From a virus, in the IMG/VR virus record IMGVR_UViG_3300042305_001773, positions 1 to 64,000 of that record: a stretch of 64,000 nucleotides of DNA. One strand, 5' to 3'. Under the pieces are notes generated by a model, which searched no databases, was not told the DNA's origin, and saw only the letters and a list, made by a program, of their open reading frames with translations. Shown here in pieces: positions 1-59,466 of this stretch; the first letter of the stretch is position 1; each line of letters opens with the position of its first letter. The position numbers and the translations under genes were made by a program.

Positions 1-371
1 ATCACGTAGGTACGCAGCTCGTCGACGTCCTTCACAGCGCGGGGCGACACGATCCGGTCAAACATGACGCGGTAGCGCGGGCCACGGATGTAGAAGTTAA
101 TCGGGAGCGTCGCAAACGGGAGCGACACAGCCGCCGGGGAATCGGGCTCCTTGTCCACCACCTTGACGGGCTTGTCAGTGTCAACCTGACGGTCAAGCTC
201 GTCGTTGGTGATGGTCAGCGGCGGCATAATCCGCCGGTAGAACCCGTCTTCACGCATCTTGGTGCGCGTGAAGTCATTAACCGCGTCGATGGCCTGCTTC
301 TGCATGCCGGGGGTATCGAGCTGCTCAAAAAGCGTTTCGTTGAGCAGTTGGATCTCTTGCTGAGTGGGCAT
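1..371 (-). CDS. probable major capsid protein, N-terminal 123 residues (cut by window edge)
   Basis: Reading the minus strand from the ATG at 371 gives an open frame of 123 codons running off the left edge. A GGAGG ribosome site sits about 10 bases upstream. The translation contains TNDELDRQVDTDKPV, EPDSPAAVSLPFATLPI and IRGPRYRVMFDRI. From memory these resemble HK97-fold capsid proteins of large phages, whose N-terminal arm precedes a strongly conserved beta-rich segment. It is the last visible member of the protease, scaffold-like and decoration-like series, which is the usual place for the capsid gene. A CTAAATAAG element lies about 20 bases upstream of the start, like the first box of the promoter motif described elsewhere, but no second box is visible. 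The family call is inference; the truncated length cannot be compared. Confidence 0.65.
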   Translation of the reverse strand, partial: MPTQQEIQLLNETLFEQLDTPGMQKQAIDAVNDFTRTKMREDGFYRRIMPPLTITNDELDRQVDTDKPVKVVDKEPDSPAAVSLPFATLPINFYIRGPRYRVMFDRIVSPRAVKDVDELRTYV

Positions 372-411
372 TTTGGGAACCTCCATGTTCCTTATTTAGT
401 TAGGGATTAGA

Positions 412-2871: not shown

Positions 2872-4329
2872 TCATGTGACATAATTTTGCAATACACAGT
2901 GGTTTGCTGTCAACCAATTGTTTCCGTATTTCTCGCAGATGGCGGCGTAAGCAGCGATCTTATACAACGCGTAATGTTGCGCAAGAGCTGTTTCTGCTTT
3001 TCCACTCGCTTGCTTGTCGGACGGAAACTCAATTGCCCGGGCGTTACGAAGCGCAGCTAAGTATGCACGTTTCTCAACGCTGACGGGTAATACGCTATGT
3101 GTGTGGGCTACCTTTTCAGCCCACACGCGCACGCTTTGCGGCGCCGCATCAGCTGGAAAGTATACATTGTTTTCAAGCGTCGTGACGATATCTACGTCGT
3201 TAGCGAGCTTTGAAAACACGTTAGGCAGCGCATACGCAACTGCACTAACAAGTGTGGCGTTAGCTGACTTAACTGTCAACGCTAAAAAATCTCGCAGCGG
3301 CAAGATTACGCCAGCGTCGGCCAGTCCGCGTAACACCTCAGACATTTTAACAGAAGGGGTGTTATTTGTATCAATAGCCGGCTGTACTTCGCCGGAGCTG
3401 GCGAGCGCGGTCTGGGCCCAGTTACCGTTGGCGCCTGCATCCTTCTCCGCCTGCGCGAGCTGTGTTAACGCCTCTAACTGTGTCTGGACCCGCGCGGCGG
3501 GGGTACGGCCGAGGTCAAACCCAAGCGGCGCTGTAATACCCAGTTGCTCGGCTAACTCGGCGCCGGAAACGCAGCTACTTGAAGCGGCTTTTTGCAGTTG
3601 ACCAGATACATAGGCAATACGGTCGGCCGGGCGAAACACGTGGCTGATATCAAAAAACGTCGGATTCGGGTTATCGGCGTGTAGTACGTGGCCGTCTTCC
3701 AGCACCCGCCCCATGTTGTGCTTTAATCCGCCGGCCTTGCAGTGACCGCCGTTTTCAACCGAGTCGCAATATTCAGCGCGGGTCTTCGCCGTGTTGCCGC
3801 AAGATGAACACTTGTCGAACGGGATCTTGCAGGCCATCGACACGGCGATCTCTTTGTCGTTGGCCAGCTTTTCTAGTTCTTTGTCCGCGATCAACCCGCC
3901 GTTCCTGTCCGCGGCTTCTTTGGAGCCGTTTAGCGCCACGACTAACTCAATGCGTTTCATAGGTTCGTGATAGGCGCTGGCCTTTACGATACCGAAACTC
4001 TTAGCGGGGTTTTTGTTGGCGTGATCACGATAAAAGCGGGAGAATTTCTCAAACGTCTGGTGGTAGTTCCGGCAGCAGTCGCGCGTAAAACCGTCGCCGT
4101 TACGATTCGGGCCGTAGTCTTCCGTAGCGCCAATCGCGATCATGTGGACCGGTACTTCGTCTTTGGCAAACTTGATGTTTTCAAGCTTGTGCGCAAACTC
4201 GGCGCCGGCGCGTTTGACGAGGTCCTGCTTGTCGGCGCCGATAATACCGCGGCTAGATACTTTGATCAGCGCGGCAACGGGCTCGCTAAAATCCTGAGCG
4301 TGCGGCTGAATAACCTTGATCATGCTCAT
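2872..4329 (-). CDS. prohead maturation protease with inserted zinc-ribbon-like motif
   Basis: 485 aa. Head proteases of the HK97/herpesvirus serine-protease clan cleave scaffold, capsid and internal proteins during maturation. The region 62-135 contains IAIGATEDYGPNRNGDGFT, then RDHANKNPAKSFG and ASAYHEPMKRIELVVALN, which from memory is the signature block of large-phage prohead proteases. The likely catalytic pair is His103 and Ser164 (EIAVSMAC). Straight after the serine comes CxxC (174/177), Cys188 and a second HC pair near 196, which looks like a small zinc-binding insertion. A long C-terminal region (residues 260-485) of unknown role follows. The gene lies immediately upstream of the scaffold-like gene in transcription order. 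Catalytic assignments are by motif only. Confidence 0.75.
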   Translation of the reverse strand: MSMIKVIQPHAQDFSEPVAALIKVSSRGIIGADKQDLVKRAGAEFAHKLENIKFAKDEVPVHMIAIGATEDYGPNRNGDGFTRDCCRNYHQTFEKFSRFYRDHANKNPAKSFGIVKASAYHEPMKRIELVVALNGSKEAADRNGGLIADKELEKLANDKEIAVSMACKIPFDKCSSCGNTAKTRAEYCDSVENGGHCKAGGLKHNMGRVLEDGHVLHADNPNPTFFDISHVFRPADRIAYVSGQLQKAASSSCVSGAELAEQLGITAPLGFDLGRTPAARVQTQLEALTQLAQAEKDAGANGNWAQTALASSGEVQPAIDTNNTPSVKMSEVLRGLADAGVILPLRDFLALTVKSANATLVSAVAYALPNVFSKLANDVDIVTTLENNVYFPADAAPQSVRVWAEKVAHTHSVLPVSVEKRAYLAALRNARAIEFPSDKQASGKAETALAQHYALYKIAAYAAICEKYGNNWLTANHCVLQNYVT

Positions 4330-8020: not shown

Positions 8021-10402
8021 TTACGCGTTAGCGATAGCGCCAAGATCAATATCCTGCGCGGCTTCTTCGGGATACGGCTCGATGGTCTTCTGCTTCAGGA
8101 AGAGGATAACGTCGCCAAGCATTTCAAACGCGTTGCGCAGCGAGTCTTCCAGTTCCGGCATGTCGGCTTTGCCGTAACGTTCGGCAAACCGGTCACCGTG
8201 CCAGTAGAACATAAACAAAATGCGGCCTAACTTATCGAGGCCCTTGGTGAGTTCGCCCATGTAACGATCGACAAGCGAGTCGTCACGTACAGCGCGCAAC
8301 ATAGCTCCTACCATCGCCGTGTCGAACACCTCGCGCTGGCCGCTCTGGGCGGCGTCGATTACGGAGCGCACGTCCTTTTGATCGAGCAGCGTGTTCGGGT
8401 TGTAAACGCTGCGGTCGGTCTGGCTAGCGCTCATACCCGGCACCTGCATCGCGGTATCAATACCGAGTTGCGTGGGGACGTTGGTGCCCATAATGCTTTC
8501 GCCGCCCATCACCGGGCCCGGATCTGTCGGCGCAGATGGCGCGCCGTTGATCATCATCGGGCCGCCGTACGGGTCGGCGTACTTAACTCGGCACTCAAAC
8601 TTGCGCTTGGCGGCCGCCTGTTTCAGGATCTCGCGCGCAGCATCTTCGCGCAACCCGTGGTGTTCCACTAGCGTAACGAGCGCTTTGATCGGGCTCAGGT
8701 TGGCTTCTTTGTTAATCGTTACCGACGAGCCGTTGTGATAAACCGTCAGCGCGGCGGTCTTCTGCATAAGAGCCAGCTGCGCGTCAACGAGGTTACCGGG
8801 CATCAGGGCCGGCGGATCGCTCTCGCCACAGCCGCAGGCGCCTTGATCTTCGGCGTTTTCGGCGTCGTCCTCACCTTTGGTGACCTTGAGCAGCTTGAAA
8901 CCCTCTGGTACATAGATGTCGCCCATGCTCGCGCGGAGGCTGGCACCCTTTTTGCCGTTGAGGTGAATCCGCACGCCGTCACGCCACTTGTCGTAGTTCA
9001 GCGGATCGGTGTAGCAGCAGGCGCCGATAGAGCCCTTCGGCGGATACTTTGAGTGATCTTCGAGATGCGCTTCGTAAACAGTGCTGCCGTTGCTGTCGCC
9101 GTACTCTTTGATCACGCGGAACGGCGCAGTAGTATCGCCGCGCTTGCTGAGCGCAATGTAACGAGCATCCTTGCTGGGGACGCTGTTGGCTTCCGGCAGG
9201 CTGTCAAACCACTTGTCGAACTCTTCGCCTTCGATACGGGCGAGAGCAAAAACTTGGTCAGCACGAGTGTTTAACCAGTTACGCGCGCCATCAACACGCA
9301 CAACAGTGATGAAGTTTTCACGCTTAGCGGCGCCTTGCGGATGCACGGCAACGTAACAACGCTCGATGTTGCCCGGTTTGACCAGAATCTCGTACAGGCC
9401 GCTTTCGGTGGGGTTAAACAGCTTCTTCTCGACCTGAATGTGATACGGAACGGATACGTTGTCGCGGTCACGCTGGTCTTGGATGAGCACACCGTCGCGC
9501 AGCAGCTTTTCCTGATCTTCTTCGCTGTGGCCGACCGGAGCTTTGGTCTGAATCGTGACGTCGTACGTGATAACCGTTAGGCCCTTAACAGACGCCGGCT
9601 CCTTGGGCGCTTCGGACAGCACGCTGGCAATCTTGGTGCTGGCGGCAACTTCGCGGGCGGCGGCGTCAGCAATAGCTTGCTTCACGATATCTAAACCGTG
9701 AAATTCTTCGATTGCGGCGGCCATCTGCGGCGCGTGCTTGCAGGAGTTAATAAGCGCGCCGATCATTTCTCGCCCGGCCTGCTTCAGAAACGTCTTCAGG
9801 TTTAGCGCGTCGCCCATTTCTTTGAATGCCTGCGCTGTGTTTAACGTGGCACTCTTGGCGAGAGCAGGCATCGCAGCCGTCATCATCTCTTTGAGCGTTG
9901 GCTGGGCAGAGCCGAACTTAGCCGGGCTGCGCGAAAGCTGCGTGAAATCCGGCTGGCGCTGGCCGAGACCCGCTAGATTGCGTTGTACGCCGCTACCCAG
10001 AATGTTGGGTTTGCGGTTGATCAGATAGTTAATCCAGTTTTCCTTGAGCGGCACGAACATGTCCTGATTTTTGATATACAGGAGTTCGTGACCCTTGAGG
10101 TCGCCGTTCAGGAAGAATACCGGCGCATACAGCCAGTTCGAGCCCACCTTGAACGCAAACACGCCGACCGCCTTGGTGTTTTCTCGGTTGCGGTCGAGGA
10201 GCTGAAAGCCAATTTCGTGGTCAAGCAGCTTAGGCGCCGAATCGCGCAGATAGGCGTGCGCCAGATTGCTAAACGACTGCTCGAAAGAGGTGTCGTCGCC
10301 TTTGCCGCCTAAATCGGCGTATTTGGTCTGGGTGCGGTCATACGACTGCATCACCTTCAGCCAATGCTTAACAGACGACTCTTTCGCTTTTTTGTTATAC
10401 AC
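8021..10402 (-). CDS. large virion-region protein, 793 aa, unknown
   Basis: I place the start at the GTG at 10402, since GGAGG lies six bases upstream, in preference to in-frame starts further upstream. The N-terminal third (FAFKVGSNWLYAPVFFLNGDLKGHELLYI) looks like a compact alpha/beta domain. The middle has a Cys-rich patch (GACGCGES) and a hydroxyl-rich beta region, and the C-terminal 150 residues are helical (LDKLGRILFMFYWHGDRFAERYG). Immediately after the RNA polymerase gene and before head genes, it may be a portal or other large head component, but I see no portal-specific motif. Confidence 0.6.
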   Translation of the reverse strand: MYNKKAKESSVKHWLKVMQSYDRTQTKYADLGGKGDDTSFEQSFSNLAHAYLRDSAPKLLDHEIGFQLLDRNRENTKAVGVFAFKVGSNWLYAPVFFLNGDLKGHELLYIKNQDMFVPLKENWINYLINRKPNILGSGVQRNLAGLGQRQPDFTQLSRSPAKFGSAQPTLKEMMTAAMPALAKSATLNTAQAFKEMGDALNLKTFLKQAGREMIGALINSCKHAPQMAAAIEEFHGLDIVKQAIADAAAREVAASTKIASVLSEAPKEPASVKGLTVITYDVTIQTKAPVGHSEEDQEKLLRDGVLIQDQRDRDNVSVPYHIQVEKKLFNPTESGLYEILVKPGNIERCYVAVHPQGAAKRENFITVVRVDGARNWLNTRADQVFALARIEGEEFDKWFDSLPEANSVPSKDARYIALSKRGDTTAPFRVIKEYGDSNGSTVYEAHLEDHSKYPPKGSIGACCYTDPLNYDKWRDGVRIHLNGKKGASLRASMGDIYVPEGFKLLKVTKGEDDAENAEDQGACGCGESDPPALMPGNLVDAQLALMQKTAALTVYHNGSSVTINKEANLSPIKALVTLVEHHGLREDAAREILKQAAAKRKFECRVKYADPYGGPMMINGAPSAPTDPGPVMGGESIMGTNVPTQLGIDTAMQVPGMSASQTDRSVYNPNTLLDQKDVRSVIDAAQSGQREVFDTAMVGAMLRAVRDDSLVDRYMGELTKGLDKLGRILFMFYWHGDRFAERYGKADMPELEDSLRNAFEMLGDVILFLKQKTIEPYPEEAAQDIDLGAIANA

Positions 10403-10483
10403 GGCCAGCCTCCATGCTGCGCTCAAAATTAGACACAGCATTAATTTACTGCGTCGAAGTCCCTATATCCTACAAAAACAGGC

Positions 10484-12364
10484 TCACGGCTTCCACCCGC
10501 TTGTTGCGCCTGTTACACCGAATTGCTCGCCTTGGGCTAAAGCAGGCACATAACTGCTGCCCGCGGTATCGCTGCTTAAACCGCGCTGTACGCTGTTCAT
10601 AAGCCCCTTTTCTTGATACGAACCCAGCATGCGGGTCATCCAATCCGGGTCGTTTGAGATGTTTGCCATGCCGCGCACCATTTCGGGCTGGAACGGCGGC
10701 GGTTCTTTGTGGGCCTGAATTGTTTTTACGCCGTATTTGTTTAAGTTTGTCAGCACGTTTTTACCGATCTTTGTGCCAATTGAATAGTGCAGTACCGGCT
10801 TTTCGAGGTAATGCCCTGTTAAAGTGCTGGGCGCGGCCGATACACTTCCTTCGCGCGGCGTCCAATTACGCTCAATAGTCGAATACGGCACCACGTCATC
10901 TGGTACGTAATCACCGTACTCGTCGGTAAGGCGTACGTGATTTACAAGACCGCGCGCTAACAGCTCGATGTTGCGGCGATGGGCCGTAATACCGCTGTTA
11001 CCCATGACTTGCCGCATGGCCTGCACGAAGTAACGACGGCCTTCGCCTACGCCCTTGTGCCTGACAATTTCTGCCGGATTTGGCATACCCTCTGATATAA
11101 CGTCACCAGCTTCAAGCTCATCGCCCTTTTTGACCGAAAGATTTCTCTCTGTCGGAACATAGTGGTCCTGACCGTTAATCTGCACATAGTGGCCGCCCTG
11201 CGGAGCCGGACGAACTTCCTGTACCCGGCCGTCGAGCTGCGCGTGCACGGCGCCGTCTGGATATTTTTTCGGGACCTGTACAAGCGCGTTGAGCGCTTTA
11301 AAACCAGAAATCGCTCCTGCGCCGCCGACACCGCCAGAATGCTTCGAGCTGATCTGGCTTTGCGTGACTGGTTCCGACAGCGCTTGTGCTGCCGCGATAC
11401 CCACATAATCTCCAATAGGCGGTAAACGCCCTTTTTCCCTGTAACCGACGTCTTTCGCATAAACTCCACCGTCTCCCGGACCGCCGACAATCGGGCTGCG
11501 GACTAAGATATCTTTGGCGCCGCTTTCTTTCAGATCCCGCAGAATCTTTGGCGTCAGCATCGTATTGCGCTTGTACGGCCCGACGGCTCGCGCAAGAAAC
11601 GCGCCTTCGTTATCGGGATCGTCTACGTCGGTCGGGTAGCCGCGCTCTTCTGCCGCCATACGCCGTTCTTCGTCCGTGTCGTCATCATCGTCAGCTGTCA
11701 CAAGCAGGCGGTGCGTCATCTGCGCCAGTTGTTTACCGTAGAAACCGGCGTCAGCTGTAGCCGTCTTGAGGTCGATAACGCCTTTGCGTGTACCGAACGC
11801 GCCGGCGAAATACTCCACCGGGCGCAAACCTTGACTGTAGCCGCGCAGCACCGGAATTGGAATCGGGTCGCCGCGGTGGTCGAGATACTGCATGTCGGCG
11901 CCGAGGATTGAATTCAGCTGAAACTTATTACCGACACCCGACCCGGCAATCTGATGCGCTAAAGGGTTATCTTGGCCCTCAGCTTCCTTGTATACCTTGT
12001 CGAGCAGTTCTTGTTGCGCCGTCTGCGCCAATTCAAGCAGTTTGATATTGCGCTGTTTTTCGTCAAGCCGTTTGTCAGCAAAGATGTCGCGCATCTGACT
12101 CTGTACGCGCAGCTGAACATGCCGCGCGGCCAAAGTCGGCCGAATATCTTTTAACCCAAAAGACAGGCCGTTCGTTGTATATCCGGCGTCACGACCGATA
12201 TCGTGAAGTCGTTTCATAACTTCGCGATATTTTTCTGGGTGATTCTTCGCCAGATCGGTGGCGACGTTTGACATAGTTTTTTTGGTCAATACGCGATCGT
12301 AATCGCGCATCTCTGGCGGCAACGCTTCGTTAATCAGAAGTTGTCCGAGCGTTGTCTTCAGCAT
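10484..12364 (-). CDS. RNA polymerase beta-prime subunit, C-terminal part (bridge helix and trigger loop)
   Basis: 626 aa. It aligns by eye with bacterial beta-prime downstream of the catalytic loop. The start TTLGQLLINEALP matches TTVGRxLxxxLP. GSGVGNKFQL with the following residues 141-180 matches the F-loop. GAFGTRKGVIDLKTATADAG (189-208) matches the bridge helix, and GIAAAQALSEPVTQSQISSK (322-341) followed by His342 and SGG matches the trigger-loop block, retaining the His that contacts NTP. After a beta-rich insertion, the motif HRRNIELLARGLVNHV matches the C-terminal conserved region. It needs the 13344-17747 product to complete the enzyme. The split lies at about E. coli beta-prime residue 620, an estimate. 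No zinc-binding cysteines are visible. Confidence 0.9.
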   Translation of the reverse strand: MLKTTLGQLLINEALPPEMRDYDRVLTKKTMSNVATDLAKNHPEKYREVMKRLHDIGRDAGYTTNGLSFGLKDIRPTLAARHVQLRVQSQMRDIFADKRLDEKQRNIKLLELAQTAQQELLDKVYKEAEGQDNPLAHQIAGSGVGNKFQLNSILGADMQYLDHRGDPIPIPVLRGYSQGLRPVEYFAGAFGTRKGVIDLKTATADAGFYGKQLAQMTHRLLVTADDDDDTDEERRMAAEERGYPTDVDDPDNEGAFLARAVGPYKRNTMLTPKILRDLKESGAKDILVRSPIVGGPGDGGVYAKDVGYREKGRLPPIGDYVGIAAAQALSEPVTQSQISSKHSGGVGGAGAISGFKALNALVQVPKKYPDGAVHAQLDGRVQEVRPAPQGGHYVQINGQDHYVPTERNLSVKKGDELEAGDVISEGMPNPAEIVRHKGVGEGRRYFVQAMRQVMGNSGITAHRRNIELLARGLVNHVRLTDEYGDYVPDDVVPYSTIERNWTPREGSVSAAPSTLTGHYLEKPVLHYSIGTKIGKNVLTNLNKYGVKTIQAHKEPPPFQPEMVRGMANISNDPDWMTRMLGSYQEKGLMNSVQRGLSSDTAGSSYVPALAQGEQFGVTGATSGWKP

Positions 12365-12365
12365 G

Positions 12366-12605
12366 TCACGGCGTCCACATTATTTTTTGCATCGACTTCG
12401 GTTGAAACTCTGACACAACAACCGTTTTGTCGACACCCAGTGCGCGCAGCAGCGAGTGAAATTCTTTTTCGCCGACTGTTGAATAAACAATGGCTTCGTC
12501 AACCTGAATAGCGACAAACAGCGGATTGCCGAGATCGTCTTCGACAATCACGCTGTGTGCTTTTTTTTCAGTCGGCTGCAGACTGTGTTGCGTTTTAACC
12601 AGCAT
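12366..12605 (-). CDS. small protein encoded between the two halves of beta-prime
   Basis: 79 aa, ending one base before the ATG of the beta-prime C-terminal gene and overlapping the end of the 242-aa gene by 11 bases. It looks like a small alpha/beta protein (HSVIVEDDLGNPLFVAIQVDEAIVYSTVG) with no Cys. No homology recognised. Its tight coupling to the polymerase gene makes an accessory or assembly factor conceivable, but nothing in the sequence shows it. Confidence 0.6.
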   Translation of the reverse strand: MLVKTQHSLQPTEKKAHSVIVEDDLGNPLFVAIQVDEAIVYSTVGEKEFHSLLRALGVDKTVVVSEFQPKSMQKIMWTP

Positions 12606-13323
12606 TGTCCGCTATGCTCCGAATCATGGCGGCGATAGCGTTTGCTTTGATCTGCATTTGCGTCGGCGCATTCGGATTGGAGTAGCCGGGGCCAAAGGGG
12701 CGCCCTATCGAAGAAGCCGACTTTTCGGGGCGGTCCCACCACGCGGCTTTCGACGGGTCGCCTTCCGGCGGCGCGGCATTCGGCGGCATCGGTCCGCCCG
12801 GAGGCATCGGGCCGCCGGGTGGTTGCATGCCACCTTGCGCGTTCGGGTCCTGCGGCGGCGGGGCCATCGGGCCGCCCGGAAGAGCTGTTTCGGCCGGTGG
12901 GGCGCCCGTCGTACCCGGCGGTAGCACCAACGACTCTGGCGGTACCTGAACGCCCATCGCGTTCATGATGGCCGTAAGCTGCTGCTGCATGTTGTACAGC
13001 CGATAATCGAGCATTTGCATCATCTGCTCCGGCTTGAGCTTTTGCTGCGCGCCGGCAGGAGCTGCGCCCGGAGCGGCGGGTGCGGCGGGCGCTGCGGGAG
13101 GTGCAGCGGGAGGCGCCATTCCCATAGCCGCAGGATCCGCTGGCGGTGCGGCTGCTGCAGCAACAGCAGACGGATCGGCCGGCGGCACAGCCCCCATGGC
13201 GGCTGGGTCAACCGGCGGAGCACCACCAGCAGCAGCGGGATCCACCGCCGCTCCGGGCACTAATGCGGATTTCTCAAAACGCGCCTTCGCCAGCGCAATA
13301 AGCTCGGGGTTTACCGTAAACAT
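12595..13323 (-). CDS. Pro/Ala/Gly-rich low-complexity protein
   Basis: 242 aa with a TGGAGGTTGT ribosome site. Starts with a short helix (MFTVNPELIALAKARFEKSA), then about 70 residues of PAAAGGAPPVDPAA-type repeats, a helical methionine-rich segment (QMMQMLDYRLYNMQQQLTAI), a second Pro/Gly-rich stretch and a basic helical tail. The middle helix could mediate oligomerisation, with flexible linkers either side. It sits between the two RNA polymerase genes. Function unknown. Confidence 0.6.
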   Translation of the reverse strand: MFTVNPELIALAKARFEKSALVPGAAVDPAAAGGAPPVDPAAMGAVPPADPSAVAAAAAPPADPAAMGMAPPAAPPAAPAAPAAPGAAPAGAQQKLKPEQMMQMLDYRLYNMQQQLTAIMNAMGVQVPPESLVLPPGTTGAPPAETALPGGPMAPPPQDPNAQGGMQPPGGPMPPGGPMPPNAAPPEGDPSKAAWWDRPEKSASSIGRPFGPGYSNPNAPTQMQIKANAIAAMIRSIADNAG

Positions 13324-13343
13324 ACAACCTCCATGTTTAACAC

Positions 13344-16300
13344 TTACGTATTATCTTCCACAATATGCACCGGGGTGTCCACCTCTATTTCGCCGCGTCG
13401 GTATGCCTGTACGGCATCCTGCTTGCTACGAAACACGCGGGGTTTGGCTTTTTTACTGATCCGACTGGACGCCAAGTATAACCCAGTCTGGTAGTCTTTG
13501 TTCGGAACGTAGTGCGCGCGAAAGGTAGACGCAGCAAACAAATTTTTGCTCGGCAGCATCTTTTCAACGGCTTCTTTCGCGGCGTCTTCTGTACTTGGGA
13601 CGTGATACTGCATCGCGTCTCCGTCGAAGTCGGCGCCAAACCCCTTGGTGATCACGGGGTTTACTTCCATAACTTTGTTCTTCGTCAGCTTAGGGTAAAA
13701 CGCCATCATGCCGTAACGGTGTAAAACAGGCGCGCGATTAATAACAATCGGTCGCGACGACATCTGACGGTCAAGCTCGGCGAACGCTTCTTTATTCTTA
13801 TCTTCAACCGCCTGCATCGCCTGCATGCGCGGGAGGCCCCGACGGACGAGGCCGCGGACGACAAACGGTTTGTAAATGTCCCACGCTTTCTCTTCCGGTA
13901 GCGCAACCTCGTCCATATCCAGATCGGGGTTTGGTGTGATGACAGCGCGGCCGACGAGATCTACCGTCGAGCTAAGCAGTTTGCGCTGAACGGTGCCGTA
14001 CTTTGGCGAGTTACCGAACACGTGCCGCAGGAAACCTTTGACATTACGCTCGACGTTCTTGGGCTGCTGCGGCTCGCCTAACCCGGTAACAGCCTTCATT
14101 GAGTCGTACACACTTAGCCGCTCGTCGCCGTAATCAGTTAGCGCGCCAGATGCTTCTTTCAGCGTGTCGTTGGCGTCGAGCAGTTCTTTGTACAAATAGT
14201 TAGCATCAGCTACGAGCGGGAGCTTTTTACTTCCCATTGTGCTCACGGGACGGAAGAGCGGCGGCAAGACTGGTACTTTACTGATCATCCAGTCTTTAGG
14301 GTGCACGCCGGTTGTTTCAGCACTCTTCAAAAAACCCAGCCGGCGCACGGCAGCGTCGCGTAGCGTCTTGCGCCCGGACTTGATATCTAAACGAGCCTGC
14401 TCAATTGCCTTCGGTAAGTTAATTCTTTCGAGCGCGGCTTTGATCGCTGTCGGGCCGGTTTTATCGCCCAGCTGCTCTCGGCCGGCCAGCACACCGCGGA
14501 ACTGCTTCTCGGTCAGGCCAAGCACACGGCGAATCGGGTCTTCCATGACGGGGTTAGGCAGCGGCTCGTGCAACGTGATCTTGCTCCACCGATTACCGCC
14601 GTGACCGCCTGTTAATGTCTCGTCAAACAGCCCGCCTGCAATAGGCTTGAGCCGCCCTTTCCAGTCCACGGTCTCGGAACTCTTTAGCTCGCGCGCGCCT
14701 GCCAGCTCGTCGACGTCTTTGTCGGTCATCGCCATCAAGTTTGAGCGCGTACCCTTGCGCACAACGTTGATACCCGACGCCTTGAGTTGGGTGACAAACT
14801 TCTCGTAAACGTGCGGTACTTTAGGCAGCGGCGGCGTATATCCGGCCATGAACTGCGACCAGTATTCGGGGTTAGCTTGGCCGCGCACCATCTTGGCATC
14901 GCGAATAACCTTGCCGGCACCGTGTGACAGTAACGCGCCCAGATCCAACATGCCGATGCGCTTGGCGCCTTCGCTGCCACCTTTTGCTGGTGTACCTTCG
15001 GCGGTATACGCGCCCATCGACCGGCCTTGCGCCTTTGACTCGCTGGTGTGGTGCAACTTCATGAAGAACCGGTTGCCAGTGAGGACGCCGCCGATTTTAC
15101 GTCCAGTTTCTGGATCGATAACGTCTTCGGTATCTGACAGGCCGTGCGCTGCTAATTCTTTCTGCGCAAACTCAATCAGGTCGCGTTTGTTATCAAAGTC
15201 CTTGAGCTTGTACGGTTTGCCAGTCTTTGCCGCAACTTTACCCAGCGCAGCCTCGATAACTTGCGTCGGGTTAATGCGGCTGATCAGACCCAGCGGCGAG
15301 ACAAGAACTTCAAACGGGTTACCATCGCGATCCTTGGGCATCTGGTCGTCAGGTACGATCTCGGCAACGACGCCCTTATCACCGAAGCGCCCCGTGAGCT
15401 TATCGCCGACGTCCATGGGTGCTTGGTTCTTCACTACAACGCTCACACCCTTCTTGGTGTGCATAACGTCGGTCACGATACCGGGGGCATGATGCTCCCA
15501 CGTGATTGTCTCGTTGGTGAAGTTACCGGCACGCCCACGATGCACTTTGCCGTACACCGTGTCTTTCTTCTTTGCCACAAGCACAAGTGGATCACCAAAC
15601 TTAACCTCAGTGCCCTTTTTGATGGCGCCGTCGTCGTCAAAGTTGTCGAGATACTTTTTGTCGTACTCAGTCGGGAACAAACTCACGAACGCCTTCTTGC
15701 CAACGTGAGTGTTGTCGTCCCACTCGGCTTCGTGCTGATACATGTGCTCAGACGTCAGCCGCTTGGATGCAGATTCAGAAATAACTACCGCGTCTTCGTA
15801 GTTCTTGCCGCGAAACGGCAGATACGCCGTACGTAGATTAAGCCCTAGCGCGGCGCTGCCGTTTTGGTCAGTAAAGTTTGACCGCGCCAGCAGCTGTCCG
15901 GGTTCGACTGTGTCACCCGGTTTCACAAGCGGCGTCTGGTGTAAAAACGTTTTACGGTTGTACGGCATTTCGTTGTACAGATCGATCGTCTTCTTGTTAC
16001 CATCTTTGTCGCGCAGCACGATACCGTCAGGTGTCACGTCCACTACTTGTGCCCGCTCAGTAGCCCGTGTGGCGCCCAGCTTCTCGCCCATCTCGTCTTC
16101 GTGCGACACGCTTTCGTCGTCAGCCTTGGCAGACTGCAACAGCGGCGCCTCGGCGTTTACGAGCGGAAGCGCCTGCGTAAACATTCGGCTACCCATGATC
16201 ACGCGATGACCTTTGATCATGGATTTAATCGGCACCATGTTTGTGAGCGCCGAAAACGTCGTGTCCATGTTGGGCAGACTGAACTGCGCTTCTTTTTTCG

Positions 16301-17747
16301 GCACGTATTTCAGCTTGCCGTTTACGAGCGCGGCTACAACAGGCAGGTTGTTATCTTCTTCGCCCGGAAATACTAGCGGTGTGTCGGCCAGCTCTTGTGG
16401 TGTCTTGTACACCTTCTCGCCGGTTTTCATATCTATAACCGGCGTATACACCTTGCCGTCGGAGCCCTTCATGGCGCCGCGAGCAAACCGCATGTCGACA
16501 CCCACTTTTCCAGACTCGGGCGTGCGAAGGTAGTCGATAAACCCAAGGTGGCTGGGCTGCACAGAACGCGACTCAGCGGGCACGGCGTCGAGCGAACCGA
16601 TGCCGCCCTCACCCATGCGCGTTACACGGGTCTGGTGGTCAAAGATCTCAGCCGGGTTGATTTCTTCAAGACTCGACCCCAAACCGCTGCCAATAAGCGC
16701 AGCTGAGATTGCCTTGTCGAATACACCCGACGGAATGTGATCAATTGACTTCTTCGCCGTGGCTTTCCAGAGTAGCTTGTTAAGAGACTGCCGGTCTTTG
16801 GTAAACCGCTCGGCAATGAGGTCTTCCGGGCCGACGACGGACTGATACACCATGTTGTCTCGGTCGTCGCTCTCGGCCTCGCGGCGATTCACTGCGATTA
16901 ATTTCTTAGTGATCGCCAGAATCGTCTCCGGCGTCATGTTCTTGTATTCAGAACCCAGTGTGCGCCGGGTGACTTCCGGGTCGAGTTCGGTCTTGGCAAA
17001 CTCGGCCGCGATCGCCTGCGCTTTGGCAATGGCGTCTGCGCCCGCGACTGGTTTATTTACAAGCCGGGCGTAAATTTTATCCAGCGTACCCGCATCGCCC
17101 TTCTCCATGTTGACCGCGGTGATCTCGTTGCCCCATGCTTTGCGAATGTCCTGATCCGACACGCCCATAGATTTGAGCAGCGGCATGAGCGGGATCTGCG
17201 CCTGCCCGATGCTGATCTTAAACACGCCAGTCTTGGGGTCGAGGAAGTACCGGTGCGAGCGACCCTTACCCGGAAGCGTGTTTACATGCGCCTCGATTTC
17301 GCCGTTGTCTTTTTCGCGGGTAAACACGCCGGGACGCAACCGCATTTGGTGCGCAAGGGTGTACTCCACACCGCCGTTCACAAACGTGCCAGAGTCGGTG
17401 AGGTACGGCACGTGAGCGATCGTGGCGCGGCGCTGGCCTACAGGCTGGCCGGTTTTGTTATCTGTAAGCGTCCACGTACCTTGCAATCGCCGGGCGAGTG
17501 TCCCTCTAGAAAGGACAGCTTTCTTTTGATCTGCCCTCGTGAAACGTTCAGGTCCTGTGTACCCGACGTCTTGAAGCTGCAGCGTATACAGGTCGTTCTG
17601 CAGCGGCTTGAGACTCTGCGCGCTGTTCAGCGCCTGATTGAAAATGTTATCGCGCATCATGCCAACATCGCCGAATGTGCGCATTGTGGGCGCAACGGGC
17701 GCGGGCATCATCGACGACTTTAGCTCGGGCAGCTCGGGGGCTGGCAT
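13344..17747 (-). CDS. RNA polymerase beta subunit fused to N-terminal part of beta-prime
   Basis: 1467 aa. The beta part shows its main landmarks in order: GLNLRTAYLPFRGKNYEDAV followed by VISESA; VGDKLTGRFGDKGVVAEIVP; SPLGLISRINPTQVIEAALG; and FFMKLHHTSESKAQGRSMG. Beta-prime begins about residue 1030 with a clamp-like segment (GGLFDETLTGG) that lacks the usual zinc-finger cysteines. It continues through RPIVINRAPVLHRYGMMAF to GADFDGDAMQYHVP, where Asp1373, 1375 and 1377 are the metal-binding triad. The usual NADFDGD Asn is Gly here. The chain ends about 90 residues later; the rest of beta-prime is at 10484-12364. It is encoded among virion genes, so a packaged polymerase is possible (inference). 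No alpha- or omega-like gene was recognised. Confidence 0.93.
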   Translation of the reverse strand: MPAPELPELKSSMMPAPVAPTMRTFGDVGMMRDNIFNQALNSAQSLKPLQNDLYTLQLQDVGYTGPERFTRADQKKAVLSRGTLARRLQGTWTLTDNKTGQPVGQRRATIAHVPYLTDSGTFVNGGVEYTLAHQMRLRPGVFTREKDNGEIEAHVNTLPGKGRSHRYFLDPKTGVFKISIGQAQIPLMPLLKSMGVSDQDIRKAWGNEITAVNMEKGDAGTLDKIYARLVNKPVAGADAIAKAQAIAAEFAKTELDPEVTRRTLGSEYKNMTPETILAITKKLIAVNRREAESDDRDNMVYQSVVGPEDLIAERFTKDRQSLNKLLWKATAKKSIDHIPSGVFDKAISAALIGSGLGSSLEEINPAEIFDHQTRVTRMGEGGIGSLDAVPAESRSVQPSHLGFIDYLRTPESGKVGVDMRFARGAMKGSDGKVYTPVIDMKTGEKVYKTPQELADTPLVFPGEEDNNLPVVAALVNGKLKYVPKKEAQFSLPNMDTTFSALTNMVPIKSMIKGHRVIMGSRMFTQALPLVNAEAPLLQSAKADDESVSHEDEMGEKLGATRATERAQVVDVTPDGIVLRDKDGNKKTIDLYNEMPYNRKTFLHQTPLVKPGDTVEPGQLLARSNFTDQNGSAALGLNLRTAYLPFRGKNYEDAVVISESASKRLTSEHMYQHEAEWDDNTHVGKKAFVSLFPTEYDKKYLDNFDDDGAIKKGTEVKFGDPLVLVAKKKDTVYGKVHRGRAGNFTNETITWEHHAPGIVTDVMHTKKGVSVVVKNQAPMDVGDKLTGRFGDKGVVAEIVPDDQMPKDRDGNPFEVLVSPLGLISRINPTQVIEAALGKVAAKTGKPYKLKDFDNKRDLIEFAQKELAAHGLSDTEDVIDPETGRKIGGVLTGNRFFMKLHHTSESKAQGRSMGAYTAEGTPAKGGSEGAKRIGMLDLGALLSHGAGKVIRDAKMVRGQANPEYWSQFMAGYTPPLPKVPHVYEKFVTQLKASGINVVRKGTRSNLMAMTDKDVDELAGARELKSSETVDWKGRLKPIAGGLFDETLTGGHGGNRWSKITLHEPLPNPVMEDPIRRVLGLTEKQFRGVLAGREQLGDKTGPTAIKAALERINLPKAIEQARLDIKSGRKTLRDAAVRRLGFLKSAETTGVHPKDWMISKVPVLPPLFRPVSTMGSKKLPLVADANYLYKELLDANDTLKEASGALTDYGDERLSVYDSMKAVTGLGEPQQPKNVERNVKGFLRHVFGNSPKYGTVQRKLLSSTVDLVGRAVITPNPDLDMDEVALPEEKAWDIYKPFVVRGLVRRGLPRMQAMQAVEDKNKEAFAELDRQMSSRPIVINRAPVLHRYGMMAFYPKLTKNKVMEVNPVITKGFGADFDGDAMQYHVPSTEDAAKEAVEKMLPSKNLFAASTFRAHYVPNKDYQTGLYLASSRISKKAKPRVFRSKQDAVQAYRRGEIEVDTPVHIVEDNT

Positions 17748-25224: not shown

Positions 25225-25494
25225 TCAGCTTAAACCCATTAAAAACCGCACAAACACAAAAATCCACGCAAGCAAGCCGCTAATAGCAAAAAAAACCACA
25301 ACCGCGCTCAGGCTGACAACACGCCCGAGCTGCTGAATCGGAATTTCGCGCAACAACCGCCACGCTTTGAGGTAATCAATCGCGCCCGGTTGTTTAGGTG
25401 GCTCCGGCGTAGGTTCGGGGTTCGGTTCCGGCGTTACCGGATCTTTTTTACGCCCAAGGAGGTCACGTAATTTATCAAACAGCGCGTTAGCCAT
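25225..25494 (-). CDS. small tail-anchored-type membrane protein
   Basis: 89 aa from the ATG at 25494 with GGAG upstream; it overlaps the 3-prime end of the 612-aa gene by eight bases. Basic N-terminus (FDKLRDLLGRKKD), a Pro/Glu repeat linker (TPEPNPEPTPEPP), then a C-terminal transmembrane helix (VVFFAISGLLAWIFVFV). Spanin-like or anchoring roles possible, not demonstrable. Confidence 0.55.
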   Translation of the reverse strand: MANALFDKLRDLLGRKKDPVTPEPNPEPTPEPPKQPGAIDYLKAWRLLREIPIQQLGRVVSLSAVVVFFAISGLLAWIFVFVRFLMGLS

Positions 25495-27325
25495 TCTTTT
25501 TACTCCAGCTTTGAATGGTGTCAAAGACGTCGTTGCCGTACAGCTGCGTCGCTTTGTCCAGCATGTTCATCTGCGGCAGTGTTCCAGTCGCGGCAGCCTG
25601 CGCCATTTGATATCTGTACTGCGGATCGAGCATCGAGCGATACAGGTGCGACTTCTGACGCGCGGCCAGAATGAAATCGCCGCGCTGCTTGGCCTTAAGC
25701 AGGTGATCGGTCACGTTTGCAAAGACCGGTTTGTTGTGGTCGTAGACAAACGGCGTCCGCAAATCGAGCAGGTTGCGGAACTGCTGCGCATATACGCTGC
25801 CTGTTGCTGCTTTCACGTGCGAACCTACGACTCCGGCCGGCGCATGAAACCGAAACTTCGTCGGTGTGTGCGTGATACCCTTGTATTTCGGCTTTGGATC
25901 GTCCACGTGCCAGTCTTGCGGTGATTGCGCAATTAATCGCCGCAAGATCTCGTGCTTTCGGTCATATTCGCGGCGATCAGAGTGCGTTTTCGCCGCACGT
26001 AACTCGTCCAGCGTGTTTGGTTTCTTTGTGCTGGGCTCTTCTTCTGCGCCCTTCTCTATTTCTTTGACTTTTTCGTAGTACAGGGGGTCTTCTTGCAGAT
26101 GATCCTTGGCAATTTCTTTGGCGACTTGATCGTTTCTTGTGTGCTCGTGCTCATGTTTAGCTCCTTCGGCTAAAGCTGGGGCAGAAAAATCCCGATCGGG
26201 TAAATTATCGGCTTCACCGCCCGGTAACAGGTCTTTTTGTCCCGAGCGGGAAAGTTCGGTGGCGGCTGTCTTAGCGACCACGGGCGCAAGCAGCTTTTTG
26301 ATGTCGGGGCCGATGTAGTCGTCGCCTTCGGGCAGGCCGGGCGCCAACGTGATGTAAGGATCGGAGCCGACTGTCGCTTTAAACACTCCCGGCTTGAGTT
26401 TGTGTTTTGCCAGCTCTAAGTAATGCTCATGCGTTTTTGACGGGTCGTTGCCCAGTGCGCGAAACGCGGTCGGTTTTACTTTGACGCCAAGTTCTTCGAA
26501 CAACTCGCGCGCCGCGGCTTGCTCCGGCGTCTCTCCTGTTTCCACGCCACCGCCGATAAAACGCCGTTTTCCGAGATTGTCGGGCCATTTTGGATTAGTA
26601 AGCGTTTCAAGCAAGTACTTATTTTCGTACGGTAACACAACGCGCACGCGAGGTTGTGGTGCGTCGGCAGCGGCTTTTAGCTCCCCCCTACTGATGGGGT
26701 TACTAAACCTATGCTCTTCCGTCGTTTCGGCAGGGGTTTCGTAACCCTTGGACTTACCGTTGTCGAGCAACACGCCTTTGCGGCGGGCGGCGACGGTAAT
26801 GTGGAACGGATGGTCGTCGTTGGGAAGTGCGGATAGGCCGTAACTCTTGCGCAGCGCCGAAAGCGCCGGACTGCTGACTTGCACGGCCCAGACTTTGCTT
26901 ACGCCATCTACGTTTTTGACGTCGATTTCTTTCAGGCCGCCCAGCGTGTAGCCGAACATGTGGCCGCGCTCATTGATCTTGTCAGCACCGATAGATGCTA
27001 CCTCATCCGCCGTCATCACCGATATATGCGCATTTACGAGATCGCCCTTAACGTTTGGAACGTTAAACACGCCCGCTGTCGGTAATTCAGCGCCGGGCTC
27101 GGTCAGGGCGTCGAACACACCGCGGACGAGCGCGTTCGGTACAGATAACAAAAGCCAGCCAGATTTGGCGAGATAGAGACGGCCGGCGAGCGGATAACTC
27201 GTGGCGGCCTGCTTGTTGCCGCTGCGATAGAGCCAGCCGAGCGCGTTACCGGCAATATAGGCAGGATGCTCGCGAAAGTAATGCGGTTCCCAAGCGAGCG
27301 GGTCGAGTGCTGAGAGGCTATCCAT
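25487..27325 (-). CDS. 2H-phosphoesterase-like domain fused to Nudix hydrolase
   Basis: 612 aa. Residues 60-185 carry two H-x-[ST]-x motifs, His100-Ile-Ser102 and His175-Ile-Thr177, spaced as in 2H phosphoesterases, which open cyclic or 2-prime,3-prime phosphodiesters. Residues 225-345 are a Nudix domain with a perfect Nudix box, G-x5-E-x7-REL-x-EE-x-GV, starting near residue 259; Nudix enzymes hydrolyse nucleoside diphosphate-X compounds such as ADP-ribose. The C-terminal 200 residues are helical and unknown. Joining the two suggests sequential processing of a cyclic nucleotide or ADP-ribose derivative, perhaps to disarm a host signal (inference). Directly downstream of the tRNA-Asn gene. 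Confidence 0.8.
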   Translation of the reverse strand: MDSLSALDPLAWEPHYFREHPAYIAGNALGWLYRSGNKQAATSYPLAGRLYLAKSGWLLLSVPNALVRGVFDALTEPGAELPTAGVFNVPNVKGDLVNAHISVMTADEVASIGADKINERGHMFGYTLGGLKEIDVKNVDGVSKVWAVQVSSPALSALRKSYGLSALPNDDHPFHITVAARRKGVLLDNGKSKGYETPAETTEEHRFSNPISRGELKAAADAPQPRVRVVLPYENKYLLETLTNPKWPDNLGKRRFIGGGVETGETPEQAAARELFEELGVKVKPTAFRALGNDPSKTHEHYLELAKHKLKPGVFKATVGSDPYITLAPGLPEGDDYIGPDIKKLLAPVVAKTAATELSRSGQKDLLPGGEADNLPDRDFSAPALAEGAKHEHEHTRNDQVAKEIAKDHLQEDPLYYEKVKEIEKGAEEEPSTKKPNTLDELRAAKTHSDRREYDRKHEILRRLIAQSPQDWHVDDPKPKYKGITHTPTKFRFHAPAGVVGSHVKAATGSVYAQQFRNLLDLRTPFVYDHNKPVFANVTDHLLKAKQRGDFILAARQKSHLYRSMLDPQYRYQMAQAAATGTLPQMNMLDKATQLYGNDVFDTIQSWSKKNG

Positions 27326-41321: not shown

Positions 41322-43511
41322 TTACTTACTGGAATCGGCGGCATCGTCGTCGTCCAGAATGCTTTTGCTGGCTTGGGGTTTGGCGTCTGGATATTTTAAC
41401 AGCCGCCGCTTCTTCTTTGAAAGCGGGCGTTTGGGCGGCGTTAATTTGAGCGTTTGAAACACAGCGCTCGCCTTTTCTTGCACTTCTTTGTCTTCTGTTA
41501 ACTCTCCTCGCCGCCGCTTGAGATACTTCTTTAATTCCTGCTCCTGATAGGCTTGGAGCATAGTTTTTACTTTGTCAGACCGGGTGCGCGCAACTAACTT
41601 CGCGGGGTCAATCGCCCAGTGCTGCAGCGCCCAGCCTCGTCTTGGCGTAGGATTAGTCATAAACGGCCCGCCATGACGCGCTTTGAAGCTCGCCCAGCGC
41701 TTGATCTGGCGCGCATCTTCGTCGGGAAGCCTGCGGCCCGAATTGTAGTTCTGGTACCACTCCAGCCAGCCCTTCGGGTCATGTTCTGTCACCCATTCCG
41801 GCTTCCATTCGCCTAAACTCGCGAGCCGTGGGCCCTCTTTTTCGTATAACGACTTGTACACACCCATGCGATGCAGCTGGCCGGGCGTGAAGTCAGGCTG
41901 AAACTCAGGAAGATCCGCGCTCTGCTTCTCCTGCTCTCTTTGCTTGCGGTATTTATCGCCCTCGTCTTGCAGGATCTTGCGGAAGATCTCGTTGAGCTGT
42001 TCTTTCTCGGCGGTAAGGTGTTCAAGTACTTCGTCACCTGTGCGCTCGCGCTTGTACCCCATGAGCTTGCCGATGAAGCTCGGGTCTTGGCTGGCACTTA
42101 GATATCTTTGCACTTGGACGTTCTTGAGTTCTTCAGGGAGATCTCGATGCGAGTCAAAGCGCAGACCACGACCACGAGCTTGCTGGCTGCGCGACTCATG
42201 CCAGTGCGGATCTAAAAGCTGAATGAGACTGGTGCCCTTGGTAGACAAACCCTCGGCGCCAGCAGGGCCAATTAAGAGCGCCCGGAGCTTGCCTTGGTTG
42301 TATGCGTCCACAGCGGCTTGGCGCGCCTTTGAGCTAACGCCGCCATGGAAAAACGCATGCGGGATCTTGGCTTTCTCTAGACCAGCTGCGTAGGGCGCCA
42401 AGCCAGAGTCAATGAAGTTGGAATAGATAATCGCCTTCTTGCGCTTGTCTTCACCCAGTGTCTTCTGCAGGTTCTGAAACGCGGCTTGTAATTTGGCGCT
42501 CTGCTGAAACGCCTTGGCCGGATCTTTGTCGGCGCGGAACGGCTGCGTGGATAAGCTCACTTGGCGCAGGCCCGTGAGAAAGCTATTTAACTTGGCCAGC
42601 TCGTCGCGGGACAACGGAAACTCTTGATCCAGCTTCCACAAAAACCCCGGCGGAATCTTCGTGCGAATAGCTTTTTGAATCTTGTCCTGCGCGTTGGACA
42701 ACGGTACGCGCACGACCTCTTCTTTAACATTTACACCTTCGGGCGTTTTGCTGGGCTGGTAATCTACTTTGCCTGCAAGCAACTGCCGCAGTTCTTTTTC
42801 GTTCTTGACGACTGGCTTGACGCCGGGCTTCACGCCACGCAGCCAACCAAACAAACCCGGCCGCACGGTTTTGTAGTCGATATACCGCTTCTCGAATTCT
42901 TCCGGCGTAATCTCTTTGTTATGGAGCATCGAGAGCAGATTGGCGAGATCCGTAGGCGAATTCGTGATCGGCGAACCAGTAAGTAACATTAAACGCTTCG
43001 CCTGCGCGGCGGCTTCAGCAGCTCCGGCCGAACTCGCGCTCCCCGGATTACGGAGCCTGTGCGCCTCGTCCATGATCAGCGTGCTGGGCGGCTTTTGAAA
43101 CTTCTTGCCCAGCGCCAGCCCCGTGTAGCTCATGATCTCGGGGTTAGAGTTCTGCGTGAACTTCTTGATTTCTTTGTCGAAATTACCCCTGAGACTAGCC
43201 GGGACTACCACGCCATACTCTTCGCCGTCTTGCTTCTTCGCTTCTTCAGCGGCGGCCAGTGAAGACAGCGATTTACCAGAACCTAAGCCGTGATAGACCA
43301 GTAAGCGCGGATCAGTGGTAGAAATACGGTCGGCGATTCTCTGCTGATGTTCCTGCAGCTGGATCTCGGGAAGAAGTTCAGCTTGTTTTTCGCTGCCGTT
43401 TTGGCGCTCGGAATTCCCGGCTGCCAAATTGGCCACTTTGTGCCATACGCTATCGGGCAGTGCGGATGGCTTGGGAGTGCTGCCGAGAATGCTATTTATT
43501 TCTGCGCTCAT
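41322..43511 (-). CDS. SNF2/superfamily 2 helicase-like ATPase
   Basis: 729 aa from the ATG at 43511, two bases after the preceding stop. Motif I VYHGLGSGKSLSSLAAA, motif II TLIMDEAHRLRNP, motif III LMLLTGSPITNSP, and C-terminal motifs AIIYSNF, AEGLSTKGTSLIQLLDPHW and QQARGRGLRFDSH. This is the Snf2/VETF-like arrangement used to translocate on DNA or remodel protein-DNA complexes. A Trp-rich extension (DPKGWLEWYQNYNSGRRLPD, then RQIKRW) and basic tail follow. In poxviruses related ATPases work with viral RNA polymerase; a similar role here would be inference. Confidence 0.85.
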   Translation of the reverse strand: MSAEINSILGSTPKPSALPDSVWHKVANLAAGNSERQNGSEKQAELLPEIQLQEHQQRIADRISTTDPRLLVYHGLGSGKSLSSLAAAEEAKKQDGEEYGVVVPASLRGNFDKEIKKFTQNSNPEIMSYTGLALGKKFQKPPSTLIMDEAHRLRNPGSASSAGAAEAAAQAKRLMLLTGSPITNSPTDLANLLSMLHNKEITPEEFEKRYIDYKTVRPGLFGWLRGVKPGVKPVVKNEKELRQLLAGKVDYQPSKTPEGVNVKEEVVRVPLSNAQDKIQKAIRTKIPPGFLWKLDQEFPLSRDELAKLNSFLTGLRQVSLSTQPFRADKDPAKAFQQSAKLQAAFQNLQKTLGEDKRKKAIIYSNFIDSGLAPYAAGLEKAKIPHAFFHGGVSSKARQAAVDAYNQGKLRALLIGPAGAEGLSTKGTSLIQLLDPHWHESRSQQARGRGLRFDSHRDLPEELKNVQVQRYLSASQDPSFIGKLMGYKRERTGDEVLEHLTAEKEQLNEIFRKILQDEGDKYRKQREQEKQSADLPEFQPDFTPGQLHRMGVYKSLYEKEGPRLASLGEWKPEWVTEHDPKGWLEWYQNYNSGRRLPDEDARQIKRWASFKARHGGPFMTNPTPRRGWALQHWAIDPAKLVARTRSDKVKTMLQAYQEQELKKYLKRRRGELTEDKEVQEKASAVFQTLKLTPPKRPLSKKKRRLLKYPDAKPQASKSILDDDDAADSSK

Positions 43512-43513
43512 GC

Positions 43514-43759
43514 TCAGTTCACCATGAGATTGCGCGCAGTTTGATACATCGCCCACAGCCCCAAGCCGGCGGACACCAAGCCCAGATATTTAAACGACGT
43601 GTACACCGTGACAAAGAAGTAAATGCCGAGCCAACACGCCAACGCACCCGTCACAACTGCGGCGATTATCCATTTTTTCACCGCAAACAATGCGGCGATT
43701 GGCCCGCACAGCAGCACGGCGCACACGATGAAAAAGACCAGTAACGCCAGACTTTCCAT
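43514..43759 (-). CDS. small three-helix membrane protein
   Basis: 81 aa, almost entirely hydrophobic: LALLVFFIVCAVLLCGPIAA, IIAAVVTGALACWLGIYFFV and YLGLVSAGLGLWAMY. Directly between the secreted protease and the helicase. Unknown function. Confidence 0.6.
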   Translation of the reverse strand: MESLALLVFFIVCAVLLCGPIAALFAVKKWIIAAVVTGALACWLGIYFFVTVYTSFKYLGLVSAGLGLWAMYQTARNLMVN

Positions 43760-59163: not shown

Positions 59164-59466
59164 ATTATCTAAGCCCAGCTGCAGCTGTTCTTAGTACTCC
59201 CCCACGTCGGCAGCACGCCACGAGATTCCCCGCAGCGGTATCCGAAGGCAAGGAGTCACCCGGTTAAACAACGTTGTGCTCAGGTATGCTAGCTGGCACG
59301 GGATATCGGTCTTGGGGCTCGGGCATACCATACCACCCTAGTTTCCTAATCCGCTACGTTGTGTGTTCTAAATGCCGATGCTGGGCACTACTCCAGCAGT
59401 TTTAATCGCGTGCTCGGCATTCACACACACGACGATAAAGGGCAACGCTAGCTAGTCGTGCCCTCA
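59164..59466 (-). ncRNA. 303-nt non-coding stretch with strong hairpins, 3-prime of tmRNA
   Basis: No gene seen. Directly after the tmRNA is AGGGCA/TGCCCT (59439-59444/59459-59464). Then a long nested stem: GTGTGT/ACACAC (59361-59366/59423-59428), AATGCCGA/TCGGCATT (59371-59378/59414-59421) and TGCTGG/CCAGCA (59379-59384/59393-59398). May be a tmRNA processing tail or another small RNA. Confidence 0.4.

Follow-up and report, generated by a model that had tools for sequence, protein, structure and literature searches.

A phage-encoded bacterial-type RNA polymerase with beta fused to half of beta' and the other half of beta' as a separate protein

A 205-kb phage (IMG/VR record IMGVR_UViG_3300042305_001773) encodes, like a large family of related phages, its own bacterial-type RNA polymerase (RNAP) in an arrangement of which we found no description: one complete large subunit, beta, is joined to the first half of beta', the second half of beta' is a separate protein, and a phage-encoded sigma factor goes with them. 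In one cultured relative, Salmonella phage Arash, the orthologs of all three were found in purified virus particles. The RNAP genes lie in the first 64,000 nucleotides of the circular record, the stretch that was analyzed here and is termed the window; the complete genome is designated G000.

Chain 1 (13344-17747, minus strand, 1467 aa) is a complete beta (residues ~1-1005) that runs directly into the N-terminal half of beta' (residues ~1010-1467, corresponding to E. coli beta' ~20 to ~568). Chain 2 (10484-12364, minus strand, 626 aa) is the remainder of beta' (E. coli ~569 to the end), and no sequence is lost at the cut. A search with polymerase domain profiles, which had been proposed as a check, identified RNA_pol_Rpb2_6 (1.9e-50) and Rpb1_2 (2.2e-24) in chain 1 and Rpb1_5 (5e-24) in chain 2. 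In a sequence search of the PDB, chain 1 matched bacterial beta (5e-68) and, from residue ~1070, beta' up to residue ~560, while chain 2 matched beta' from ~575/660 onward. Two small open reading frames on the minus strand separate the chains: one of 79 aa (12366-12605), without a Pfam hit and found in 47 of 108 related loci, and one of 242 aa (12595-13323), Pro/Ala-rich, without a family hit and found in 45 of 108. The dN/dS ratio is about 0.04-0.06 for both chains, so both are selected protein-coding genes. The architecture reported in the original prediction is thus confirmed.

The catalytic residues are conserved. In the beta barrel of chain 1, the motif KLTGRFGDK (15375-15401, minus strand) carries the two catalytic lysines (K783 and K791, equivalent to E. 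coli K1065 and K1073), and the equivalents of beta R678, E813, D814 and R1106 are also present, as are the beta C-terminus and the flap; several rifampicin-pocket residues are inferred to be changed. The catalytic loop GADFDGD of the beta' barrel (residues 1371-1377; 13617-13637, minus strand) contains the three metal-binding aspartates (D460/462/464), and beta' R425 is likewise conserved. Chain 2 contains the bridge helix region (11717-11815, minus strand; EYFAGAFGTRKGVIDLKTATADAGF...) and the trigger loop region (11270-11386, minus strand), with equivalents of Gln Q929 and His H936. In contrast, the Asn458 and Arg933 equivalents are lost in the clade of the window. The replacement of the Asn of NADFDGD by Gly, which had been pointed out in the original prediction, is not a defining feature: among relatives the position is G (54), N (17) or A (13), and the site is therefore tolerated. 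The absence of the zinc-finger cysteines, also pointed out there, was confirmed. The N-terminal zinc-binding domain (E. coli ~67-103) is cleanly missing at 14589-14600 (minus strand; ...LTGGHGG//NRWSKITL...) and is deleted in all fused phages aligned, whereas the second zinc site is kept in Arash, Vibrio phage D69 and two further fused phages of the alignment (L174 and L151), and lost in the window and in a third (L131).

The possibility that the two genes would be joined in close relatives, which had been named in advance as grounds for regarding the split as a sequencing artefact, was examined and is contradicted. Every informative relative, comprising about 80 IMG/VR contigs at 39-97% identity and an Arash-like clade, keeps beta fused to the head of beta' and chain 2 separate. 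At least twelve Arash-like contigs also cut off the catalytic barrel as a third piece.

The remainder of the genome was searched for further subunits, as had been suggested. No alpha or omega was detected (no PF01000 or PF01192 match in the whole genome), and there is a single RNAP set, with one PF00562 match in G000 and in each of 26 relatives. A sigma70-family protein is encoded at G000:183566-184420. It is homologous to Arash Gp10 (1.9e-18) and matches Sigma70_r3 above cut-off; Sigma70_r3 was found in 25 of 25 members of the family, and the family profile hits primary sigma factors (SigA) from region 2.2 to region 4 at 2.7e-20, although the end of region 2 is degenerate in the protein of this phage. 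The sigma was found in 24 of 25 related genomes. A k-mer enrichment analysis upstream of crude gene calls gave no convincing promoter motif.

The chains lie beside homologs of virion proteins. An 806-aa protein (8021-10441, minus strand) is a homolog of Arash virion protein Gp218, and a 485-aa protein (2872-4329, minus strand) of Gp222. The N-terminal part of the major capsid protein gene is located at 1-386 (minus strand) and continues at the other end of the circular record. A 744-aa SNF2/RapA-like helicase (41322-43556, minus strand) is a homolog of Arash virion protein Gp217, whose gene is adjacent to that of the beta' C-terminal half in Arash. In the published virion mass spectrometry of Arash (PMC10585845), the orthologs of both chains, sigma and the helicase are present at structural-protein levels: unique peptides per 100 aa are 8.4 for chain 1, 6.6 for chain 2, 10.3 for sigma and 8.1 for the helicase, against 9.8 for the capsid and 5.5 for the portal, while 14 of 15 replication/metabolic enzymes are below 3.

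The closest known systems are the RNAP genes of Arash (OQ632216; Gp206, Gp216 and sigma Gp10) and of Vibrio phages D69, D148 and D181, which have the same fused and split architecture and form one clade with 100/100 support. Identity is about 33% in chain 1 and 25% in chain 2. The Arash authors labelled the chains 'beta' and 'beta'' and, in the sections consulted, do not mention the fusion. Vibrio phage D181 initially resembled a case of split beta, but its gene carries a group I intron.

Multisubunit RNAPs are already known from phages. In the phiKZ/AR9 type (PMC7598289), the core likewise lacks alpha and omega, one version is packaged in virions, and beta' is cut just after the catalytic barrel; the cut found here (E. 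coli ~551-568) lies close to that one and to that of cyanobacteria. The statement in the original prediction that these phages divide their subunits differently therefore requires correction with regard to beta', since what differs is the intact beta and its fusion to beta'. In phiKZ/AR9, beta is itself split and not fused, two RNAP sets exist and no sigma homolog is recognisable, while the present phage has a whole, fused beta, one set and a sigma recognisable from sequence. The mReC RNAPs (Weinheimer and Aylward 2020, PMC7481178) are bacterial-like beta/beta' enzymes of large tailed phages, outside the bacterial clade, which were selected on beta and beta' of at least 800 aa with NADxDGD, and the text describes no such fusion. 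Chain 2 (626 aa) and the GADFDGD motif do not fulfil that criterion, although 17 relatives do have NADFDGD; whether some members of this clade were counted as mReC was not checked, and mReC sequences were not included in a tree. As for the mReC hallmarks of a PF03237 TerL and a PF07068 capsid protein, the TerL here is PF05876 and the partial capsid protein has no Pfam hit, which leaves the comparison undecided. Other phage-encoded multisubunit RNAPs, those of Cobetia phage Carin-5, Yersinia phage YerA41, Rhizobium phage RHph_TM30 and Vibrio phages Va2 and 1.031.O, show no fusion at these loci, beside replication genes, and keep the N-terminal zinc domain in those aligned; YerA41 also splits beta', but further downstream (E. 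coli ~636). In the natural beta-beta' fusions of Helicobacter and Wolbachia the beta C-terminus is likewise joined to the beta' N-terminus, but the whole of beta' is included and alpha and omega are present, whereas here beta' is cut in every informative relative and its zinc domain is deleted. A genome scan with chain 2 for a cellular genome with the fused enzyme yielded only an ordinary Patescibacteria RNAP with separate beta and beta', and a Foldseek comparison against viral structures recognised no fused protein, returning mostly giant-virus RNAP subunits and phage fragments.

Taken together, we consider it likely that this is a two-chain, DNA-dependent, bacterial-type RNAP of a tailed phage, which is packaged in the virion, free of alpha and dependent on sigma. 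That chain 1 carries both double-psi barrels and the three metal-binding aspartates, that chain 2 carries the bridge helix, trigger loop and beta' C-terminus, and that a conserved sigma70-family protein is encoded elsewhere in the genome, is established by sequence, and the occurrence of the orthologs in virions is established for Arash by the published data; the remainder of this view is inference. In this view, joining the beta C-terminus to the beta' head would replace the scaffolding that alpha2 (and omega) give to cellular RNAP, such that assembly would require only the docking of chain 2; the enzyme would be packaged with its sigma, enter the cell with the DNA and start early transcription without host RNAP, and, as the only RNAP set in the genome, it may also serve later in infection. 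The interpretation put forward in the original prediction, a beta/half-beta' fusion with a split beta' that may be packaged, is supported, although no activity has been measured, packaging is shown for Arash (about 33% identical) and not for this phage, and host alpha could still take part. Structure prediction, which had been proposed as a test of whether the chains form a two-barrel active site, gave only mediocre models of the single chains (chain 1 fragment, pLDDT 70 and pTM 0.53; chain 2, pLDDT 62 and pTM 0.52), and the complex was not modelled, so that neither the two-barrel arrangement nor the docking is demonstrated. A more far-reaching reading, about as likely as not, is that of a third class of phage multisubunit RNAP: an alpha-, omega- and zinc-domain-free enzyme in which the covalent junction does the job of the alpha scaffold, packaged together with its own sigma70-family factor and SNF2 helicase as a ready-made holoenzyme, and descended from a lineage that branches outside the bacterial RNAPs sampled.

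Of the alternatives, the one that survives best, although unlikely, is that an RNAP of this architecture is made after infection for middle/late transcription and is merely carried over in Arash preparations. The Arash authors themselves note that abundant enzymes may simply persist in the preparation, and late genes must also be transcribed by a phage with only one RNAP set, but the peptide densities given above match capsid and portal proteins and exceed almost all replication enzymes, and the genes lie beside homologs of virion proteins. Somewhat less likely still is a hybrid enzyme, in which the phage replaces only beta and beta' and the chains associate with host alpha2 and omega, and perhaps host sigma. 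No alpha or omega gene is detected in G000, and the beta C-terminus and flap are retained; however, a conserved phage sigma accompanies the core, and phiKZ/AR9 cores work without alpha and omega (PMC7598289). A degenerate, non-catalytic relic kept as a structural or inner-head protein is improbable: the very high abundance in Arash virions and the loss of the Asn458 and Arg933 equivalents and zinc sites in the window's clade would suit it, but the metal-binding Asp, catalytic Lys/Arg and trigger-loop His are conserved over a wide range of divergence, dN/dS is about 0.05, and a sigma factor is co-conserved. Finally, an assembly or frameshift artefact, or re-joining by an intron or split intein, can be dismissed, since the end and start points are the same in about 80 contigs and in cultured phages, other genes lie between the chains, no intein halves occur at the ends of chain 1 or chain 2, the inteins and group I introns that do sit in these genes in some relatives are at positions other than the chain 1/chain 2 cut, and no intron was found in the gap of a three-piece relative (L167).

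The enzyme would represent another way to build a multisubunit RNAP, with both catalytic barrels on one chain, the mobile elements on another, and no alpha, omega or N-terminal zinc domain, yet with a sigma factor, which makes the roles of alpha and the zinc domain in assembly directly testable. Cultured relatives exist from which the enzyme can be purified, namely Arash and Vibrio phages D69, D148 and D181, and a published virion proteome already contains what looks like a packaged holoenzyme that was not recognised as such. The variable cuts, with beta' in two or three pieces, together with the inteins and group I introns, also bear on how split RNAP genes arise.

The analyzed region forms part of a virus record of 205,044 bp (designated G000), whose two ends overlap by 131 bp (128 identical) inside the major capsid gene, so that the record is most likely a closed circle. 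On the minus strand, positions 13344-17747 encode a chain of 1467 aa (chain 1) and positions 10484-12364 a chain of 626 aa (chain 2), with two small ORFs between them. Pfam and PDB sequence searches identified chain 1 as bacterial beta followed by the N-terminal half of beta', and chain 2 as the C-terminal half of beta'. Two PHROG families labelled as of unknown function, phrog_24349 and phrog_25354, match the beta and beta' parts of these chains. Elsewhere on the same strand, the region carries a phage-encoded tmRNA (59464-59807; tag GTFNSVPALAA) beside a cluster of tRNAs, a trypsin-like serine protease (43767-44615; PF00089, 2e-20), which seems unusual for a phage, and a 612-aa protein with NUDIX, 2H phosphoesterase and DUF5661 domains (25487-27325).

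In alignments with beta subunits from E. coli, S. aureus and other species, chain 1 covers beta to its very C-terminus (..SGINVVRKG), although three stretches of 12 or more residues are missing relative to S. aureus. Within about 10-20 residues the chain enters beta' at E. coli residue ~20, and the N-terminal zinc-binding domain (E. coli ~67-103) is cleanly absent. Chain 1 ends at E. coli ~568 and chain 2 begins with the next residues, so the cut removes nothing; it lies between the catalytic loop and the bridge helix, and in this the original prediction held. The catalytic residues of both barrels and the trigger-loop His are conserved. In contrast, the Asn of NADFDGD varies (G, N, A, S, T), and the Arg next to the trigger-loop Met position is lost in the fused phages aligned. 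The second zinc site is kept in the phages Arash and D69 and in the related contigs L174 and L151, and is lost in the window and in contig L131, so it was probably lost inside this sub-clade.

Joined genes in close relatives had been named in advance as the observation that would reduce the split to an artefact. A scan of IMG/VR with chain 1 gave 49 loci, while an alignment-based scan gave 144 relatives, of which the best 80 (39-97% identity) were inspected. Wherever the contig is long enough, beta is fused to the N-terminal half of beta' and the rest of beta' is a separate downstream gene; one contig (L139) has broken frames in both chains. The same holds for the cultured phages Arash and Vibrio D69, and for Vibrio phage D181 apart from a group I intron. 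Among 27 Arash-like contigs, at least twelve carry a cut inside chain 1 after the beta' head, giving beta plus the beta' head (~1130 aa) and, where the contig reaches, a separate catalytic barrel chain of ~380 aa and chain 2; this three-piece RNAP was observed among the Arash-like IMG/VR contigs L166-L179 and L181. No intron was found in the one such gap tested, and the beta/beta'-head junction is not broken in any of them. In five relatives (L120, L123, L140, L144 and L137), chain 2 carries a long Pro/Ala/Gln-rich C-terminal extension (up to ~690 aa) of unknown role. The dN/dS ratio is ~0.05 for both chains, and the arrangement is not an artefact.

Selfish elements are common in these genes. 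Inteins occur in highly conserved RNAP stretches, in chain 1 of contig L106 (RTPE^C...GN^S) and at the trigger loop of chain 2 of contig L079 (AAQAL^C...SN^S), with similar inserts in L134, L135, L138, L145, L147 and L143; the one at the trigger loop has Hint and LAGLIDADG domains, whereas the others are inferred from insert size and position only. Group I introns were detected in the beta part of chain 1 in Vibrio phage D181 (L053:9455-9735) and in contig L165 (L165:10536-10817); in D181 the intron is accompanied by a homing endonuclease, and the exons are annotated as separate hypothetical proteins.

A search for further subunits, which had been proposed as a check on the polymerase, showed that the genome has one RNAP set and no alpha or omega match; 26 related records also have one set each. 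A single sigma-like gene (G000:183566-184420) is homologous to Arash Gp10. Its family is present in 24 of 25 related genomes, every member scanned matches Sigma70 region 3, and its profile aligns with primary sigma factors from region 2.2 through region 4 at 2.7e-20. Arash itself encodes two sigma-like proteins, Gp10 (L062:11892-12596) and Gp196 (L051:5462-6499). In addition, a SNF2/RapA-like helicase (41322-43556, minus strand) is homologous to Arash Gp217, which is encoded next to chain 2 in Arash.

The suggestion that the polymerase may be packaged was compared with the published Arash proteome (PMC10585845), in which Gp206 (chain 1) is the most detected protein (3516 spectra, 128 unique peptides), and Gp216 (chain 2), the sigma Gp10 and the helicase Gp217 are also well covered. 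The authors of that study note that carry-over is possible, and for the phage analyzed here packaging is an inference from orthology. Normalized by length, the four Arash proteins have 6.6-10.3 unique peptides per 100 aa, similar to the capsid (9.8) and portal (5.5), while 14 of 15 phage enzymes have fewer than 3 (p = 8e-4; the protein sets compared were of our own choosing, and RNA ligase Gp143 is the exception). Of the two Arash sigma-like proteins, only Gp10 is listed in the proteome; Gp196 is not in the table.

Structure prediction, another of the proposed checks, was applied to the chains singly. The AlphaFold2 model of chain 1 residues 268-1467 had a pLDDT of 70 and a pTM of 0.53, with most core blocks near 80-92, and that of chain 2 alone had a pLDDT of 62 and a pTM of 0.52. 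The models do not settle the arrangement of the two barrels or the docking of the chains, but they support the folds: Foldseek found bacterial beta with the chain 1 model (3e-44) and beta' with the chain 2 model (5e-17).

In a beta' tree, all of the fused phages fell in one clade (100/100), apart from five bacteria (100/99) and from five other phage RNAPs that group only weakly (74/58). The tree is unrooted and includes few bacteria and no archaea or mReC sequences, and nothing further can be read from it; it is consistent with one origin of the fused type and shows no recent capture from the sampled bacteria.

The original interpretation, of a phage polymerase with an unusual fused and split architecture, is supported, with a correction regarding the split. 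The phiKZ/AR9 enzymes also lack alpha and omega and also cut beta' after the barrel, as do cyanobacteria (PMC7598289), so the cut is not new. The mReC paper (PMC7481178) selected on NADxDGD and length and does not mention such a fusion in the text searched, although overlap with this clade cannot be excluded. In comparison with the phiKZ/AR9 enzymes, what differs in the polymerase described here is the intact beta fused to a cut beta', the missing zinc domain, the single RNAP set and the accompanying sigma.
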